Positions 2,190-24,145 of a DNA stretch of 33,846 nt are shown piece after piece. A program made the translations under genes and the position numbers. The stretch covers positions 1 through 33,846 of the forward strand of contig JANWXR010000006.1 of the NCBI GenBank assembly GCA_025057205.1, written 5' to 3'. This DNA comes from Anaerolineales bacterium (lineage in GTDB: Bacteria; Chloroflexota; Anaerolineae; Anaerolineales; UBA6663). The notes beneath the pieces were generated by a model. It did no database searches. It was not told the DNA's origin and was given only the letters and a program-made list of their open reading frames with translations. Each line of letters opens with the position of its first letter. Position 1 is the stretch's first letter.

Positions 2190-2221
2190 AAAAGGCCGCT
2201 CCCTTGCGAAAGCGGCCTTTT
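2190..2221 (-). terminator. Intrinsic terminator of a short minus-strand transcript
   Basis: aaaaggccgct-cccttgcga-agcggcctttt inverted repeat; minus strand continues into TTTTGTTGTTTGT. Confidence 0.75.
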
Positions 2222-2226
2222 GTTTG

Positions 2227-2273
2227 CGCCGGGGCATGATCTCGAACTTACTCGAGGAGGGATGCCCCGGCGC
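2227..2273 (-). ncRNA. Long GC-rich hairpin in a short leader/sRNA-like transcript
   Basis: GCGCCGGGGCAT...ATGCCCCGGCGC outer arms with an inner CTCGA/TCGAG stem. Confidence 0.55.
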
Positions 2274-2304
2274 TTAAACTAAAACGTTTATCCATGTGGG
2301 ACAT
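2248..2304 (-). CDS. 18-aa micropeptide ORF MSHMDKRFSLSAGASLLE
   Basis: ATG at 2304 preceded by AGAAAGGAGGAGGTG; stop TAA at 2250-2248; lies between a promoter and a terminator. Confidence 0.45.
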   Translation of the reverse strand: MSHMDKRFSLSAGASLLE

Positions 2305-2381
2305 CACCTCCTCCTTTCTAAAGGATGGCGGTGATAATCGGGCACGCATTCCACTAGAATGCGGCGGAAAATGATGCCGGG

Positions 2382-2410
2382 ATTATGGCATGGATGGGGA
2401 AGAGCGTCAA
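2382..2410 (-). promoter_or_regulatory. Sigma70-like promoter TTGACG-N17-CATAAT, minus strand
   Basis: Minus strand TTGACG CTCTTCCCCATCCATGC CATAAT, spacing exactly 17. Confidence 0.65.
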
Positions 2411-2716: not shown

Positions 2717-3622
2717 ATGTCCCCTCTCTCCCCCACCCGTGACTGGCTTGGCTGGTCAATGGCCGGCACAGCCGCGCTAGGGTTCAGCTTAGTCACGCCG
2801 CTGAGCAAGGTCGCGCTGATTCTGGGCCTGAACCCGGCGATGCAAAATGTCGCCCGGCTGGTGTTGACGGCTGTGCTCCTGGCTGTGACGCTGGCCTTCA
2901 CGGCGCGTGGGTTGCGCATTGATCGGCGCGGGCTGGGGCTCTGCTTAGGAAGCGGCGCGCTCATTGGCGCCGGCGCACTGATTTACCTCGTCGGACTGAC
3001 AAGCGTGGATAGCTCCATCGCGGCGATGATTTTTGCCATCGAGCCGCTGCTGGTGCTAGGATTACTGGCCCTGCGCGGCGAGCGCTTCACCTATCGCCAG
3101 TATGTGCGGCTGGCGCTGGCGCTGACCGGCGTGTATTTCCTGGTCGGGCCGGGTGGGCGCGTCGACCTGCTCGGCGCGGGGCTAATCGCACTTTCAACCT
3201 TCTTCTTTGCACTGCCCATGGCAATCATGCAGTGGTCTTTGCAGGGATACGACTCTCGCACCATCACGTTTTACATGGTGCTGGGAATGGCACTGATCAA
3301 CCTGGTCGCCTGGTTTGCGCAGGGCGCACCCTGGCATGAGCCGGGCGCAGCAGGCTGGCTGGTCATCATCGTGCTGGCCGTGGTTTGCACCTACCTCTCG
3401 CGGCTCGCGCTGGCCACAGCGGTGAAGCGGCTGGGCAGCGGCCAAGTCTCGCTGCTCGTCCCGCTGGAGTTGCTGCTCGCGGTGGTGTGGTCGGTGCTGT
3501 TCCTCGGCGAGAGGCTGACACCGGCGCAATGGTTCGGCGGCGCGCTCATCCTGACCAGCGCAGCCCTGGCCGTGGTGCGCCTCCGGCGCGTGCCCTGGCG
3601 CGCCACGACGGAGCTGCCATGA
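2717..3622 (+). CDS. EamA/DMT-superfamily transporter
   Basis: 301-aa ORF with about ten hydrophobic segments; EamA-like repeats (SSIAAMIFAIEPLLVLGL, VSLLVPLELLLAVVWSVLFLGERLTPAQWFGGALIL). Confidence 0.85.
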   Translation: MSPLSPTRDWLGWSMAGTAALGFSLVTPLSKVALILGLNPAMQNVARLVLTAVLLAVTLAFTARGLRIDRRGLGLCLGSGALIGAGALIYLVGLTSVDSSIAAMIFAIEPLLVLGLLALRGERFTYRQYVRLALALTGVYFLVGPGGRVDLLGAGLIALSTFFFALPMAIMQWSLQGYDSRTITFYMVLGMALINLVAWFAQGAPWHEPGAAGWLVIIVLAVVCTYLSRLALATAVKRLGSGQVSLLVPLELLLAVVWSVLFLGERLTPAQWFGGALILTSAALAVVRLRRVPWRATTELP

Positions 3623-4111
3623 GCCTAGACTCCCTTCGCTCTGAACGCCGCTCTGCACGGCGCGCTGAACTGCGTCAGGTGCGCAGCCGATTGCCGCTGC
3701 TCACCCAACCGTTCCGCCAGCCGCGCAACCCCCTCCCGCCGCTCGAAATCTTGAACCCCGCACAGGTCGAAGAGCTGCATCTTGCCTCGCTGCACATCCT
3801 CGAAAACACCGGCGTGCAATTTCAGGATGCCGAGACGTTGAGCCTATGGGAGCAGGCCGGCGCGCAGGTGGACCACAAGGCGCAGCACGTGCGCCTCGAT
3901 CGCGGGCTGGTGCTGGAGCTGGTGGCCAAAGCGCCGCGTTCCTTCACCTGGCGCGCGCGCAACCCGGCGCGCAACGTGCTCATCGGCGAGGTGAAAGGAG
4001 ATGCTGGCTGCCTACCAGCCGCCGCCGCTCGACCCCGGCGTGCGCGAGGTCGTCGCCGACTACGTCGCCCGCCGCACCCGCGAGCTGGAAGGGAAGAGCC
4101 TGTACGAGTAG
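3619..4111 (+). pseudogene. Trimethylamine methyltransferase (MttB) family remnant: N-terminus fused out of frame to the extreme C-terminus
   Basis: ATG 3619 overlaps the EamA stop. N-terminal MttB-like sequence to VLIGEVKG (~3996), then frame +1 gives EMLAAYQPPPLDPGVREVVADYVARRTRELEGKSLYE* (3998-4111), an MttB-like C-terminus. Confidence 0.8.
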
Positions 4112-4159
4112 TAAAACGATGGCTGTATGTTATACTGCCCCTGACCTGAGGACAAAGCC

Positions 4160-4387
4160 ATGCATGAAGTCACACTTGAGGAAATGCCGCAGCGTCTGCG
4201 CGATTTGGTGAAAGCGGCTGTCCAGGGCGAAACTGTAGTCATCGTGAAAGACCATCAGCCACTGGTGCAACTGGTGCCGCTTACTCTACCGCGCCGCATG
4301 CCACAGTTCGGAAGCGCACAGGGTAGCGTCATTATGGCCGATAACTTTGACGAGCCTTTGCCCGACTTTGCCGACTACATGCCGTGA
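4160..4387 (+). CDS. Phd/YefM-family antitoxin
   Basis: 75-aa MHEVTLEEMPQRLRDLVKAAVQGETVVIVKDHQPLVQLVPL; overlaps the PIN toxin start by 4 bp. Confidence 0.85.
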   Translation: MHEVTLEEMPQRLRDLVKAAVQGETVVIVKDHQPLVQLVPLTLPRRMPQFGSAQGSVIMADNFDEPLPDFADYMP

Positions 4388-4782
4388 GACTGCTGCTGGA
4401 CACGCATACTTTTCTGCATACTTTTCTGTGGTTCGTCGGAGGGGACGCCAGACTTAGCCTGTTGGCGCGTCAGTTGATCGAAGACGTTGCGCAACAGCCA
4501 TTATTGAGCATCGCCAGTCTGTGGAAAATGGCAATCAAGATCAGCTTGGGCAAATTGACCCTCAACCCTTCCTTTTCCGACTTCATCCCGCGTCAATTAC
4601 AACTCAACGGTATTCAGTTGCTGGGCATTGAGTTCCGACACACAGCCCTCGTCGCTACCCTTCCCTTTCACCATCGCGACCCTTTTGATCGAATGTTGAT
4701 TGCTCAGGCGTTGAGCGAGTCGATCCCTATCTTGAGCCAGGATCCTACTTTCGATGCCTATGGCATTACGCGCCATTGGTAG
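4384..4782 (+). CDS. VapC-like PIN-domain toxin, probably impaired
   Basis: GTG start; RLLLDTHTFLHTFLWF, SLWKMAIKISLGKL, HHRDPFDRMLIAQA, ILSQDPTFDAYG match the PIN family; carries a 12-bp tandem duplication and Lys where the family usually has Glu. Confidence 0.85.
   Translation: MRLLLDTHTFLHTFLWFVGGDARLSLLARQLIEDVAQQPLLSIASLWKMAIKISLGKLTLNPSFSDFIPRQLQLNGIQLLGIEFRHTALVATLPFHHRDPFDRMLIAQALSESIPILSQDPTFDAYGITRHW
4404..4427 (+). repeat. 12-bp perfect tandem duplication inside the vapC-like gene
   Basis: gcatacttttct gcatacttttct. Confidence 0.95.
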
Positions 4783-4798
4783 CAGAAAGGACCCCTCC

Positions 4799-5041
4799 AT
4801 GAACCTGTTCGACTTTCTCGTTGATGAACTGCTGGAGGCCCTGCGCCTCGCCATCTACAGCCGCGCGCGCCGCAACCCGCCCCCCCGCTTGCGCCGCTCC
4901 GCAGACATGGCCGCCTTGGATGAAGGCAGGGCCATGCGCAAAGCGCGCCGCCGCCGGGGCGGCATCAATCCCCTGCTGCTCATCGCCCTCATCATCGTCG
5001 GCTGGCTGGTGCTGCGCCGCCTGAGACAAAAACGCAGCTGA
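4799..5041 (+). CDS. Hypothetical small membrane protein
   Basis: MNLFDFLVDELLEALRLAIYSRARRN...GGINPLLLIALIIVGWLVLRRLRQKRS; single C-terminal TM segment. Confidence 0.6.
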   Translation: MNLFDFLVDELLEALRLAIYSRARRNPPPRLRRSADMAALDEGRAMRKARRRRGGINPLLLIALIIVGWLVLRRLRQKRS

Positions 5042-5050
5042 ACGTCGTTC

Positions 5051-5085
5051 TACGGATTACGGGATACGCAATACGAAACACATAA
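5051..5085 (+). repeat. Degenerate period-7 repeat (tacggat tacggga tacgcaa tacgaaa cacataa) with an inverted right arm
   Basis: Units at 7-bp spacing; downstream ttgcatattgcgtaa is an inverted copy of the TACGCAA type. Confidence 0.6.
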
Positions 5086-5115
5086 CATGGATTGCATATT
5101 GCGTAACACCATGCC

Positions 5116-5692
5116 TTGCCTGTGCCCAATTCAACGCAACATATCAAAGCCGCCGTTTGCTACGAGTTCTGCAAACCGCTCGTTCTTGAAGAAATTTGCC
5201 TTGATGCGCCGCACGCGGGCAAGGTGCGCGTCAAACTCGCCGCCGTCGCCATTTGCCACAGCGACGTGCATCTCATTCGGGGCGAATGGCGGGGCCGTCG
5301 TCGAGACGGTCGGCGAGGCGTCACAGCAGTTGCGCCCGGCGATCCGATGATCGTCACGCTGTTGCGGTCACGCGGGCGCCGCTTCTTCTGCACGCAGGGC
5401 ACGCCGTTCCCGTGCGAGGCCGGCCTCTCCATCGCCTGTAAGCAACGCCTGCGTCGCCCTGCTGATGGCCTGCCCATCAATCGGGGCATCAGCGTTGGCG
5501 CGTTTGCTGAAGCAGTGGTCGTGAGGCAATCACAGGTGGTGAAGATACTGGCGGACGTGCCGCTTTCGGCGCATCCACAGTCATCGCGGCAAATGTGCTC
5601 GACCACAAGCTGGAGGCGGCCTGCAAGCTTCGGCGCGACCCACACGCTCAATCCAAAAACGCAGAGCCTGCGCGCCAGCGTGCGCGCGCTCA
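5116..5692 (+). pseudogene. Zn-dependent alcohol dehydrogenase (MDR) remnant with deletions, frameshifts and lost zinc cysteines
   Basis: KAAVCYEFCKPLVLEEICLDAPHAGKVRVKLAAVAICHSDVHLIRGEW, APGDPMIVTLLRSRGRRFFCTQGTP (expected CGRCFFC-type), GAFAEAVVVRQSQVVKILADVPL, then AANVLDHKLEAA and FGATHTLNPKTQSLRASVRALT in different frames. Confidence 0.8.
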
Positions 5693-5693
5693 C

Positions 5694-5830
5694 CTGGAGC
5701 GCCTGGCCATCAGCCCGCAGTGCGGCTTGGCCACCTCCATCGGAGGCAACGCCATCTCCCCCGCCGACCAGTTCCGCAAGCTGCGCGTGCTGGCCGAGAC
5801 CGCGCGGAAGCCTGGGGCGAGCGGGCCTGA
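5694..5830 (+). pseudogene. C-terminal remnant of a MetE-like (cobalamin-independent methionine synthase superfamily) protein
   Basis: LERLAISPQCGLATSIGGNAISPADQFRKLRVLAETAR then a frameshift; shifted frame reads EAWGERA*. Resembles the ...LSPQCGFAS..GN.....KL.L..ETAR..WG family terminus. Confidence 0.6.
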
Positions 5831-5951
5831 CTCTTTTGCACAACAGCACTGCGGAGCCAACAAACTCTTACGTAACACTCACCTTGCTTATCAGCAGCGG
5901 AAGATACAATCTGGTTGACTGCCAGATTCAGACTTTATGAGGACTTTGGAC

Positions 5952-7196
5952 ATGAGTCGCGTTTATCGTGTGGTAGCTGTCCTGTTTTTGCTCGGCGTCA
6001 CCGGGACCCTGATGTTCGCGGGCGGCTTTGCCGCCGGCCGGTTGACGGCCACATCTCCCCTGCTCAGCTTCGTGCCGGGTGGGCCGCGCACCGACCCCGC
6101 TGCAGGCGGCACGCCGGAAGAGCTACGCACAACCTTTGCGCCGTTTTGGGAAGCCTGGGACCTCGTGCACACCCAGTACGCCGATCAGCCGGTGGACGAT
6201 GTGGCTCTGATGCGCGGCGCCATCCGCGGCATGCTGGATGCGCTCGGCGACCCGCACACCGGCTACATGACCCCGGAAGAGTACCGGATTAGCATGACTC
6301 ACCTCGACGGCGAGTTCGAGGGCATCGGCGCAACCGTAGAGACCGATGAAAAAACCGGCTACACGCGCATTGTCGCCCCGATCGCCGGCTCGCCGGCGGA
6401 GGCCGCCGGAGTCCGCGCCGGCGATCTCATCATCGAGATCAACGGCGAGGACATCGCCGGGCAGGACATCACCACCGTAGTCACCAAAGTGCGTGGCCCG
6501 GCGGGCAGCAGTGTGACGCTGACCATCCGCCGCGAGGGCGTAACCGAGCTGCTGACGTTCACCATCACACGCGCACGCATCACCATTGCTTCGGTGGAAA
6601 GCCGCATGTTGGAGAACAACATCGCCTACATCAAGGTGAACTCCTTCGGCGAAGAAACGGGACATGAACTGCGCGACCAGTTGCGCAAGCTGCTCGCGCA
6701 GAATCCCGTTGGACTGGTGCTCGACCTGCGCGGCAATCCGGGCGGATACCTGCAAACCGCAATCGAAGTCGCTTCCCAATTCATTCCAGATGGCGTGTTG
6801 ATGGTCGAGCGCTTTGGCGATGGGCGCGAGCGCACCTTCGAGGCCCAGGGCGGCGGGCTGGCGACTCGTATCCCCCTCGTGGTGTTGATTGACAAAGGCT
6901 CCGCTTCAGCTTCGGAAATCGTCGCCGGTGCGGTGAAAGACCGTGGCCGCGGCACGGTGATCGGCGAGACCTCGTTCGGCAAAGGCTCAGTGCAACAATC
7001 ACACACGCTCAGCGACGGCAGCGCCGTACGCATCACCATCGCGCGCTGGCTGACGCCCAACGGCACCTGGATCCATGAACAGGGCATCGAACCGGATATT
7101 GCCGTTGAGCGGACCGAGGAAGACCGGGCTGCCGGACGCGACCCGCAGCTCGACCGCGCGGTGCAGCTGTTGCGCGGCCAGACAACGGGGCCTTGA
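5952..7196 (+). CDS. ctpA: S41-family C-terminal processing peptidase with PDZ domain
   Basis: LRGNPGGYLQTAIEVASQFI, GSASASEIVAGAVKDRGRGTVIGETSFGKGSVQ, PDZ SPAEAAGVRAGDLIIEINGEDI. Upstream in-frame ATG at 5937 is possible. Confidence 0.93.
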   Translation: MSRVYRVVAVLFLLGVTGTLMFAGGFAAGRLTATSPLLSFVPGGPRTDPAAGGTPEELRTTFAPFWEAWDLVHTQYADQPVDDVALMRGAIRGMLDALGDPHTGYMTPEEYRISMTHLDGEFEGIGATVETDEKTGYTRIVAPIAGSPAEAAGVRAGDLIIEINGEDIAGQDITTVVTKVRGPAGSSVTLTIRREGVTELLTFTITRARITIASVESRMLENNIAYIKVNSFGEETGHELRDQLRKLLAQNPVGLVLDLRGNPGGYLQTAIEVASQFIPDGVLMVERFGDGRERTFEAQGGGLATRIPLVVLIDKGSASASEIVAGAVKDRGRGTVIGETSFGKGSVQQSHTLSDGSAVRITIARWLTPNGTWIHEQGIEPDIAVERTEEDRAAGRDPQLDRAVQLLRGQTTGP

Positions 7197-12906: not shown

Positions 12907-14778
12907 TCAATCCGCCACCGGCATCGGTGCCGCCTCTGTCGGCACGCCGTCCTCGTCCCAGCCACGCAAGGCATAGTAGCGCGGCAACATCAGGTCCATA
13001 TCCGGCAGCACACCCGCTGCGCTGCCGGTCGGGCGCGGCTCGAATTGCAGACGGTAAGGCAGTACATCATCCTTGCGCCGTATGCCAAAGGCGACATTGA
13101 TCCGGCGCTTGTAGTTGAAAAGGCGCGCCCCGGTGTCGAGCACGTCCTGAGCCGTCCAGTTCCAGCCCAGGGCTTTATTGAACAGCTCGGCGGTCTGTGC
13201 CGGGGTGAACGAACCTTTGATGATGAACTTACACAGGCCGCCGGGGTTGTACACGCTCATGTAATCTTGGAAGGCGATGGCGGTCTCGGCGCCGAGGGAG
13301 GAGTCAAAGCGGCGGCGTTCCACCCACTCCTGCGCGTCGCCCTCCTGCCAGCCCGGCCACTCGATGCCCACGCCGCGCCAGTAGGAGATGGCCTCCAGAT
13401 GGCACGCGCCCCGGTTGGCGGTGGCGTAGTTGGCGGCCATGCTGACGAATCCGCGCGGGTCGTGATAAGGCACTTCCAGCCCCTTAACATGGACGGCGAA
13501 CTTCTCGCTGCCCTGCCCGATCTTCGCGGCGGCGGCACGCACGCCCTCGGCCAGCAAATCACCGATATCCAATCTCAGCGCGATTTTGTGAATCATCGCG
13601 ATAATGGCATCGGCATCCCCCCACTTCAACTCGATGCCGCCGGTGTCGCGTGAGGTAATCAGCCCTTTCTCGTAGCACTCGAAGGCAAAGGCCAGGACGC
13701 TGCTGGTGGAAATCGTGTCGAGCGCGTAACGGTTGCACAGATCGTTCATCGCGGCGATGGCGTTCAAGTCGTCGCATTGCAGGTTGGAGCCGAAGCCGCA
13801 CAGTGTCTCGTACTCTGGCCCCTCACCGTACACGCCGGCGTACTTTCCGTCCTTCACCTCCACGGCCTTGCCGCAACCGATAGGGCAGGCGTGGCAGTAG
13901 GTGTGCTTGACGAAGATGGTCTCGGCGATGGCTTTGCCGCTGGTCTTGATGGTGCCCTCCAGCCAGTTGCCGCCGCGCCAGTTCAGGATGGCGTTGTCGC
14001 CGAACTTGTCGGTAGTCGGATGGCCGCCCGCCGTGCCGACGAGGTGCAGCGCCTCCGCCGGACCGTGGCTCATGATGTATTTGTTGGACTCCTTCACCGT
14101 AGCGTGGAATCCCTTCGCATCGGCATACTGAGGCTTCTCCTTTCCGCGAACGACGATGGCCTTCAGCCTCTTCGATCCCATCAGCGCGCCCATGCCGCCG
14201 CGCGCCGCCATGCGCGTATGCGGTTGCCCACCGGTCGCAACGCCGGCCAGCTTCACCAGCTTCTCGCCCGCCTGCCCAATGGACGCGCAACGCGCCTTCT
14301 CGTCGGTCTCGGCCAGCAGCGTCGCGTGCGTCTCGAACTGGTCTTTGCCCCAGACGTGGGAGGCGTCGCGGAACTCCACTCGGTCGCCGTTGATCCAGAG
14401 ATAGGTGGGCGACTCGCAGCGGCCTGTCAGGATGATGCCGTCCCAGCCGGCGAAGCGCAGCTCCGCGCCCCAGTGCCCGCCGAGGTTGGCCTCGTTCCAG
14501 ATGCCGGTGAGCGGCGAGCGCCCGCACCACGACGAGCGGCAACCCGTGGGCGCAAAGGTGCCGGAGAGCAAGCCGTTCATGACGATGAGCGGGTTGCGCG
14601 GGTCGAAGACATCCACGGCGGGGTCAATCAGGTCGCGGAACTCTTCGTAGTAGATTTTTGCCGCCAGTCCAGATCCGAGCAGAAAGGCCCGAACTTCGGC
14701 TTCCTGAACAGGTCGCACGTTAACCATGCGCGTGGTGAGGTCAACGTGAAGAAGCTTGCCAGCATAAACGTTGGGCAT
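12907..14778 (-). CDS. Aldehyde ferredoxin oxidoreductase (tungstopterin, [4Fe-4S])
   Basis: 623 aa; ARGGMGALMGSKRLKAIVVRG, YCHACPIGCGKAV plus downstream ETLCGFGSN cysteine, EGPEYETLCGFGSNL typical of AOR. Confidence 0.93.
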   Translation of the reverse strand: MPNVYAGKLLHVDLTTRMVNVRPVQEAEVRAFLLGSGLAAKIYYEEFRDLIDPAVDVFDPRNPLIVMNGLLSGTFAPTGCRSSWCGRSPLTGIWNEANLGGHWGAELRFAGWDGIILTGRCESPTYLWINGDRVEFRDASHVWGKDQFETHATLLAETDEKARCASIGQAGEKLVKLAGVATGGQPHTRMAARGGMGALMGSKRLKAIVVRGKEKPQYADAKGFHATVKESNKYIMSHGPAEALHLVGTAGGHPTTDKFGDNAILNWRGGNWLEGTIKTSGKAIAETIFVKHTYCHACPIGCGKAVEVKDGKYAGVYGEGPEYETLCGFGSNLQCDDLNAIAAMNDLCNRYALDTISTSSVLAFAFECYEKGLITSRDTGGIELKWGDADAIIAMIHKIALRLDIGDLLAEGVRAAAAKIGQGSEKFAVHVKGLEVPYHDPRGFVSMAANYATANRGACHLEAISYWRGVGIEWPGWQEGDAQEWVERRRFDSSLGAETAIAFQDYMSVYNPGGLCKFIIKGSFTPAQTAELFNKALGWNWTAQDVLDTGARLFNYKRRINVAFGIRRKDDVLPYRLQFEPRPTGSAAGVLPDMDLMLPRYYALRGWDEDGVPTEAAPMPVAD

Positions 14779-21382: not shown

Positions 21383-24145
21383 CTAAGGTTGCCAAGCTGG
21401 GTAGTAATCCGGCGCGGGGTCGGTGGTCAATTGCACCACCTCGCCGCCGGCGATAGGCATTCGGTAAATATCGCGCTCGCTAGCTGCGCGCCAGGACTCG
21501 AACACCAGCCACTGCCCGTCCGGAGACCAGGCCGGTTCATCGTTGAAGCCCTCACCGCGCACGGCGCGGACGCCGAATCCCAGTCCATCCCAGGGCACGG
21601 TGAACAGTCTGTTCTGGAAGACAAAAGCAACCAGGCGACCATCCGGCGACCAGGCAGGCGAGTCGGCGTCCAGGTCGCGCGTCACTTGGCGCGGGTTGCT
21701 CCCATCCTCAAACGTGCCATCCTTATTCATCCAAAAAAGTGTGGGGCGGCCGGCGCGGTTGTTATTGAGAAACACGATGCGCGCGCCATCCGGCGACCAG
21801 GTGGGATGACGATCAAAAGCCGTAGGCGAACTAAGGCGCTGCGGATTGCTACCATCTGCTGCGGCCACATAGACCTGTGGCCGATTGCCTTGCAGAACGG
21901 TGAAGGTCAGGCCGGAGGGCGACCAGTCCGGGTCAAAGATGCCGCCTGCCAGCGTCAGCAATTGCTGCACGTCACTGCCGTCGGCGTTCATCCGATAGAG
22001 AGCTGCGCCGGGGTACGTCTCCGCACGACGCGCGCACGGGCTGATGAAGACCAGTTGTTTACCATCCGGCGACCAGGCCGGCTGACAGGCGCCGTCTGCC
22101 AAATCTGTTAGCGCCGTCTGGTTCGAGCCGTCCGCGTTCATCAGGAAAATTTGCGGCTTACCGTTTCGCTCGCTGACAAAGGCGATGCGGCCGCTCGCGC
22201 CGCCGCCAATGGGCGTCGCCTGAATGGTGGGGGTTGGGGTGGGCGTGACGGTCTCCGTGGGCGTCGGTGAGTTGAGAGGGGTAGGCGTAGCGGAAGGCGT
22301 GGACAACGCCGCGGCTTGCAGGGCGGTCACCGTTGCCCAGATTGGAGCCAGCGTGGGCGGGCCGGGCGGTGTGGTCGTCGGACGAACCTCCGGCGGGCCT
22401 GTGACAAGAAACACTGCGAACACGGCCAGCAGCCCAAGCACCACAAGGCCCAGCGCCAGCCACGCCAGCCAGGCCCGGCTCGGAGAGTCACTCTCTGCTT
22501 TTGCCAATGCTGCAAAACTTTCAACTTCGAGGAGTGCCTCAGCAAACTCAACCGCTGTCTCAAAACGCGCCTGCGGCTGCAGGCTTAGGGCGCGCTCGAT
22601 GGCCTGCGCCAGTTGCGGCGATACATCAGGCCGGCGCTGCCGTAAGGGTGTCAGCGCAACGCGGCCGCCAAGGCGCTCTTGCCCCGTCTCCGGCAGATGG
22701 CCGGTGAGGAGCGTATAGCAGGTGGCGCCCAGCATGTAGAGGTCGCTGCGGGCATCGGTTTTTGCCTCGGGCGGCAGGTACGGCCGGCGGTCTGCGTCCG
22801 CCCAAGCCGTCGGCGTGCGACCCAGGCCGTAATCCACCAGAACTATGCGCCCTTCAAGCGTAAGGCGAATGTTGGCCGGCTTAACATCGGCATGAACGAG
22901 GGGCGGCACCTGGCTGTGCAGATAGTGAAGGGCATCCAGGAGGCGCAGTGTCCAATGCAACACATCAGATTCGGGCAGCGGCCCTTCACGCTCCAGCAAC
23001 GCCTCGGTGCTGTCCCCCCGAATGAAATCCATTACCAGATACAGCCCCTGGCCGGGAAAGATGAAGTAATCACGAAAACGCGGCAGGTGAGGATGACGCA
23101 ACGGAAGGAGCAGCTCGGCCTCGCGGCGGAATTCACGCTCCATCGCCGGCGTCGGCTCGGGAATGAACTTAAGCGCCACGTCCCGCCCCTCGGTCTCATC
23201 ATAGGCTCGATAGACGGCGCCTGACGCACCGGCGGCGATTTCTCCCATCACGCGATAGCGGCCCCGGACAAGCGTGTTGGGTAACAGGCCAATCGCAGCG
23301 CGACGGCGCGCCGGTGGTTGCTCCTCAACACGACCAGGCCGCAAGTGGGTTGGGGGCGTGGACTGCGGCTTCACCTGAGGAGCGGCGGCGGCTTCACTCG
23401 ACTCCGACAAATCCCGGCCCGGCGGAGGTGACTCAGCCGCCGGTGAACCCAACGGATCTGACTCAAGCACGGCAGATGGCTCAATTTTAGCGACAACCGG
23501 CTTGGCCCCAACTTCCCCAGCTTCGCTGCCTGCGTCGGCGTCTCTCTCCAGCTCAGGCACCCCAGTCGGCGTAACGACTTCGGCAAACACCCCGGCTGCT
23601 TCAGCGGCAGTCGGCTCGGCAGACATGCCCGCTGTCTGATCTGGCTCAGGCGCTGAGGTGAGTGTGCCAGGTTCAACTTCAACCCAAGCGCTCTGCGACG
23701 TTGGCGCTGACGGACTTTGTGCCTCGCGGGCGGTTGGCGTCTCAGGGACATCGGTCGGAGACGCTTGGGCAGAAGACTCTGGCGGAGCATCATCCCTCTC
23801 AACTATGGGCGCCGTCTTAGTCACCAGCCAGGCGGGCAGAGCGGGCGAGGGCCGCGGCGGTTCGACGGGCTGAGCCGACTCCGGTGCTGACGACTGGGCA
23901 TTAAGCTCCTCCAGACGGCGGCGTGCTTCGGCGTTGTTCGGGTTGATGTCGAGCACGCGCTGTAAACAATCGCGCTGGATATTGGGGTCGAGAACGGCGT
24001 AGCTGAAGAGCAGCCAGGCACGCTCCGAGCGAGGGTGACGCTCCAGTAGCAGCTTGAGGATCTCCAGAGCCGCCTGCCGCTTGCCGGCTCGGATCAAGCG
24101 ATAGGCCTCGATGAGATCAGAAGTCGGAGTTGAGGAGATCGTCAT
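21383..24145 (-). CDS. Serine/threonine protein kinase: N-terminal TPR-like region, kinase, TM segment, extracytoplasmic TolB-like beta-propeller
   Basis: [84 protein letters not shown]; repeated [12 protein letters not shown]-type units. Confidence 0.93.

Follow-up and report, generated by a model that had tools for sequence, protein, structure and literature searches.

In leader-peptide attenuators of the trp, tna and erm type, a short open reading frame (ORF) overlaps alternative RNA hairpins, and the dual-function small RNAs (sRNAs) SgrS/SgrT and Spot 42 carry a short ORF together with their own promoter and terminator. The 6C RNA of Actinobacteria is an sRNA that stands alone, is widely conserved and has C-rich loops in its hairpins, and C-rich loops resembling an anti-Shine-Dalgarno (anti-SD) sequence are also found in the CcsR/cuckoo RNAs. 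The latter, associated with DUF1127 genes in Alphaproteobacteria, derive from small transcription units composed of a short coding part and small RNAs (PMC10253847). In the duf1127_1 leader of Sinorhizobium meliloti, the ribosome binding site (RBS) pairs with C-rich codons of the leader's own upstream ORF, translation relieves the pairing, and the leader has been proposed to monitor ribosome availability (PMC12218461).

Here, we describe a small transcription unit located on the minus strand of a 33,846-nucleotide stretch of DNA from an Anaerolineales bacterium (hereafter, the window). As in the S. meliloti duf1127_1 leader, the RBS of its short ORF is complementary to C-rich codons of the same ORF, although no homology is claimed. 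The gene that the leader controls lies downstream of it, and the control is presumably exerted through Rho, while the unit has an intrinsic terminator and no constant downstream gene; furthermore, the unit adds a second competing hairpin and is conserved across two classes. It shares with the CcsR/cuckoo RNAs the format of a small transcription unit with a short coding part, but it lacks a DUF1127 protein and any sequence relation to them, its anti-SD lies inside the ORF, and processing into several sRNAs is not among its observed features. Unlike the 6C RNA, the unit has at its centre an ORF together with the SD of that ORF, and it has no Rfam match: in the Rfam 15 search only tRNA and LSU rRNA reached gathering scores, and the best sub-threshold matches at the unit were far below them. 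The trp, tna and erm attenuators differ in having a regulated downstream gene, absent here, and the peptide of the unit is not conserved between classes. With respect to SgrS/SgrT and Spot 42, the ORF and the pairing segment of the unit overlap, and the segment pairs with the SD of that same ORF. No description of the unit was found in the open literature that we searched on Chloroflexota sRNAs and anti-SD RNAs. In general, it would work like the ribosome-sensing leaders and the anti-SD sRNAs, sharing some of the defining features of each group.

An earlier note on this DNA had claimed a minus-strand promoter, SD, ORF, hairpin and terminator at this locus, and all of them were found in place. 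The sigma70-type promoter TTGACG-N17-CATAAT (2382-2410, with TTGACG at 2410-2405 and CATAAT at 2387-2382) scores 10/12 and has an extended -10 TG. The 5' UTR contains a GCATTC/GAATGC hairpin (2346-2362), also described in the note, which is present in the window and in part of the lineages only, so it is not a general feature of the homologues. The extended SD AGAAAGGAGGAGGTG (2305-2319) precedes a 15-codon ORF, MDKRFSLSAGASLLE, with stop codon TAA (2248-2295). The stop sits in the loop of a long hairpin, GCGCCGGGGCAT...ATGCCCCGGCGC (2226-2273, arms 2273-2262 and 2237-2226), and an intrinsic terminator, formed by a hairpin (about 2221-2190) and a T-rich tail, closes the unit (2183-2223). The RNA from 2375 to 2190 has an RNAfold energy of -89.7 kcal/mol, with a z of -8.8 relative to shuffles. 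Three segments are involved in the structure discussed below: segment 1, GAGGAGGTGATGTC (2300-2313), in the SD region; segment 2, GGCATCCCTCCTC (2254-2266), an anti-SD within the ORF that resembles the 16S 3' tail; and segment 3, the 3' arm of the long hairpin (2226-2237), located 3' of the stop codon.

A blastn search with the 241-nt unit against 60 relatives gave matches in 17 of them, and inspection of the listed matches showed 16 to be true copies; the match in L018 was rejected, as it covers the terminator only. A covariance model (R1), built from 17 copies including that of the window, found the unit in 163/251 genomes of the order, nearly always once and with E-values down to 1e-25. Considering only the good genomes (completeness of 90% or more and contamination of 5% or less), the unit recurs as an intergenic gene in 104/139, which is the outcome of the covariance search in related genomes that the note had proposed as a check. 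Two matches each were found in G047, G148, G151, G169, G181, G185, G191, G204, G206, G212 and G237, where the second may be a true copy or an antisense match of the hairpin, and no R1 match was obtained in the listed genomes of family f12 and of parts of f7, f8 and f10, which may reflect loss or divergence. A broader model (R2) found the unit in 177/298 genomes of a sample of the class, and in 116/189 of the good ones. The named genomes that matched in a pattern scan were mostly Chloroflexota, the majority with Anaerolineales or Anaerolineae titles, and the covariance model confirmed the latter.

In a sample of the phylum, four weak matches fell outside the class (E about 5e-4). When these matches were read and the class to which one of them belongs was searched, copies emerged in a second class, with the same anatomy and diverged sequence: promoter, AAGGAGGUGAUGCC, AUG, 13-16 codons, GGCAUCACC, stop, GGUGAUGCC and terminator. 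A strict pattern for this form was found in 38/120 genomes of this class, and in none for the reversed control. We take one of the genomes, G350, to be Herpetosiphon aurantiacus, and the second class is hence called Chloroflexia. In that genome, a convergent LSU rRNA gene (3449-6091) has its 3' end ~360 nt from the unit (L217 3001-3091). The unit is real, lies where the note had placed it, and is strongly selected. Since it has no Rfam match and is retained by the majority of the Anaerolineae sampled and by many Chloroflexia, this RNA gene probably has a general role in the Chloroflexota (green non-sulfur bacteria), a major yet poorly studied phylum.

The flanking elements are conserved as well. 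A promoter score of 10/12 or more is reached by 112/133 homologues and by only 6/399 shuffles, the spacer is 17 nt long in 115/133 copies, and a TG precedes the -10 box in 106/133; a terminator-like hairpin follows the unit in 123/133. Conversely, the neighbours vary. The nearest downstream gene is convergent in 43/71 loci of relatives, its family differs (phosphofructokinase-like, rhodanese-like and others), and no conserved co-directional downstream gene was found across the 71 loci. The unit is thus a free-standing gene, as the claim of a complete transcription unit had implied, and possesses the promoter and the terminator expected of a trans-acting anti-SD sRNA.

In the window, a penicillin-binding protein (PBP) gene of the same strand starts about 150 nt downstream of the unit, and the note had considered the unit as a possible attenuator for it. 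This proximity and the leader-peptide-like anatomy would favour a cis-acting leader, but the downstream genes are unrelated and often convergent, and the terminator stem appears distinct from the switch helices. Control of the PBP or of another downstream gene is therefore a very improbable function. To judge by inspection, the switch arms and the terminator stem may vary separately. Elsewhere in the window, the minus strand encodes a protein kinase of 920 aa that contains PD40 beta-propeller repeats (21383-24145) and an aldehyde ferredoxin oxidoreductase-type protein (12907-14778).

The ORF is not the 18-codon frame placed by the note immediately after the SD. The first ATG (2304-2302) is not the constant start: in the homologues this corresponds to the second ATG (2295-2293), 9 nt further on, and in L006, L012, L014 and L016 the first ATG/GTG does not share the frame of the ORF. 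With this correction, an open frame is indeed retained. The ORF is in frame with the anti-SD in 113/114 Anaerolineae copies, at offsets differing by whole codons (seven ORFs that the automatic motif did not recognise were assigned manually), and in 29/29 Chloroflexia copies, for which the search pattern imposed no frame. Its length ranges from 13 to 20 codons, and the stop codon lies at or 5' of the hairpin 3' arm in almost all copies.

The encoded peptide follows a different course. The anti-SD is read as Ala-Ser-Pro/Leu in Anaerolineae and as Gly-Ile/Val-Thr/Ala in Chloroflexia, and this difference in frame between the classes makes it unlikely that the peptide matters. The test of synonymous conservation suggested in the note gave weak coding statistics for the free N-terminal codons: codons 2-7 have a weak excess of synonymous changes (23/91 against 17.7% expected, p 0.045), but one off-frame count was higher. 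On these comparisons, selection acts on translation and on its end point, and probably not on the peptide. In copy L031 (2616-2717), the ORF is frame-shifted relative to the anti-SD, yet it still runs without interruption to a stop codon within the loop (MDSHKPQLCGIPPW). Two AGT codons (Ser-Ser) often occur within codons 2-5 in both classes (e.g., L217, L165 and L059), although the remainder of the peptide differs; they could act as a signal at the RNA level or as a codon-pausing signal.

In the window, GGCATCCCTCCTC, which forms the second half of the ORF, is complementary to the unit's own SD region (GAGGAGG-T-GATGTC). The structure proposed in the note included the hairpin overlapping the ORF, which stands, and overlooked this anti-SD, so that the SD was not recognised as one arm of a three-segment switch. 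Among 99 distinct aligned copies, 97.7% of the cells of helix 1:2 pair; the variable pair columns 32-104 carry AU 72 times, GC 13, GU 8, UG 2 and UA 1, and are unpaired in 2 copies. The codons match the SD base by base: where the SD has an A, the codon is Ser TCN; a G is accompanied by Pro CCN or Ser TCN, and a T by Ala GCC or Thr ACC. The alignment thus shows the predicted helix 1:2 to covary. The most distant copies (L156 and L214-L218) are aligned unreliably by the model and enter the duplex energies only, not the pair counts.

Native duplexes are stronger than swapped ones, with 0/5000 permutations reaching the native energies among the 104 copies and 0/10000 among the 59 distant copies; with one copy per family (31 families), the energies are -23.2 kcal/mol for native and -19.9 for swapped duplexes (z about -7.8), with 0/1000 permutations in each of 50 draws, and in all these tests shared ancestry is limited, not fully removed. 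Furthermore, the anti-SD is predicted to bind the SD of the unit harder than the 16S tail does (mean -24.4 vs -20.0 kcal/mol). The 16S 3' end reads GGATCACCTCCTTTCT in members of the order and segment 2 is near its tail (GGCAUCACCUC vs GGAUCACCUCC), but the commonest Anaerolineales form of the segment, AUCCCUCCUC, deviates from it.

Segment 2 is also the 5' partner of hairpin 2:3, in which 11 of the 12 pairs have both-sided changes and 93% of the cells are paired. The comparison of copies shows that the two putative helices both covary while competing for the same bases; since they share some bases, their full forms are mutually exclusive. The hairpin claimed in the note is thus covarying, and fits the translation-coupled switch suggested there. 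Coherently, when the RNA is ended just before the 3' arm, predicted folding gives the SD-masking helix in 129/130 copies, while with the 3' arm the hairpin 2:3 is formed in 124/130. Two results count against a switch: the SD is still masked in 21/130 full-length predicted folds and, although the SD is masked in 27/29 truncated Chloroflexia RNAs, a hairpin 2:3 with at least 6 gapless pairs is predicted in only 16/29 copies of that class. In most Anaerolineae, a candidate pseudoknot between the SD and the loop is possible while the stem is formed.

At least two classes have thus conserved the switch-like design without conserving its peptide, which suggests that the job of the RNA is to be read by ribosomes and not to make the peptide. 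We assign a probability of about 0.5 to the reading in which the unit is a free-standing, translation-gated RNA switch that would report ribosome access, perhaps exposing its anti-SD in trans. As folding predicts, the nascent RNA would hide the SD in helix 1:2 until segment 3 is transcribed, and the hairpin 2:3 would then release it. A ribosome loading early or repeatedly could hold helix 1:2 open, and its transit, with termination in the loop, would set the presentation of segment 2, so that the RNA may report ribosome access or availability; the peptide would be a by-product. An ORF that is conserved as an ORF and not as a peptide, and that carries its own anti-SD, would make the sensing of free ribosomes directly testable in one small RNA.

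With no constant downstream gene, the read-out must be the RNA itself, and the candidates that we infer are an anti-SD acting on other mRNAs, a strong SD acting on 30S subunits, or the stability of the RNA only. An output in trans is the weakest step of the model: the exposed anti-SD with its CCUCC core might pair with the SDs of other mRNAs or, alternatively, the very strong SD might hold 30S subunits. The conservation of CCUCC is explicable by cis complementarity alone. A search of six genomes for the extended SD GGAGGTGATGYC-N0-6-ATG matched only the unit and few other sites; the long extended SD is thus nearly unique to the unit in these genomes and no SD-sharing regulon was found. Among the fetched AAGGAGGTGAT sites, a unit-like ORF follows only at the unit itself, and several of the sites match the 16S 3' end in reverse complement. 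More tentatively, and with less confidence than in the reading given above, the unit could be a phylum-wide, single-copy housekeeping RNA, i.e. a free-standing sensor of ribosome access in which a dummy ORF sets an SD/anti-SD/anti-anti-SD switch and global translation is adjusted through the 16S-tail-like segment or the SD.

Other explanations use part of the same evidence. The RNA could be a decoy, abundant and with a near-perfect strong SD that occupies free 30S subunits while the anti-SD arm limits the titration. The predicted pairing of the SD with the 16S tail (about -20 kcal/mol on average) and the strong conserved promoter agree with this, but a titrator needs neither a conserved in-frame ORF that terminates within the hairpin loop nor a self-masking arm that binds the SD better than the 16S tail does, and we consider it unlikely. 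The folding predictions reported above, with the SD masked in 129/130 nascent RNAs and the hairpin present in 124/130 complete ones, would equally be expected from an auto-regulated timer, in which SD masking merely delays translation until transcription ends, protecting the RNA from decay or termination, with no output in trans; as this leaves the near-universal retention of the gene without a reason, we regard it as slightly less credible than the decoy.

A micropeptide gene, with a 13-20-residue product and an RNA structure that tunes its synthesis, would account for the ORF conservation in 113/114 and 29/29 copies, for the weak synonymous excess and for the Ser-rich start common to both classes. 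Its core residues, however, track the RNA pairing, the S/P/A/T codon following the SD base, the anti-SD is read differently in the two classes, and the frame-shifted copy L031 has an unrelated peptide end, so this explanation appears quite improbable. Finally, segment 2 could mimic the 16S tail and bind a protein that recognises the 16S 3' end, such as Era, instead of acting via translation. The likeness of the segment to the tail is in its favour, but the commonest Anaerolineales form departs from the tail and the conserved ORF is left unexplained, which makes this the least probable of the proposals, below even the control of a downstream gene.

Upstream of the SD, the 5' UTR carries a GCYATCC motif (2323-2329) that is kept in nearly all Anaerolineae copies. 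It is located ~10-14 nt 5' of the SD, is almost invariant in the class, and showed by eye no covariation with the SD. Pairing of the motif and the SD with the pre-16S trailer was considered and discarded, the trailers of seven genomes having no consistent match. In the Chloroflexia copies, a small GCC...GGC hairpin often replaces the motif.
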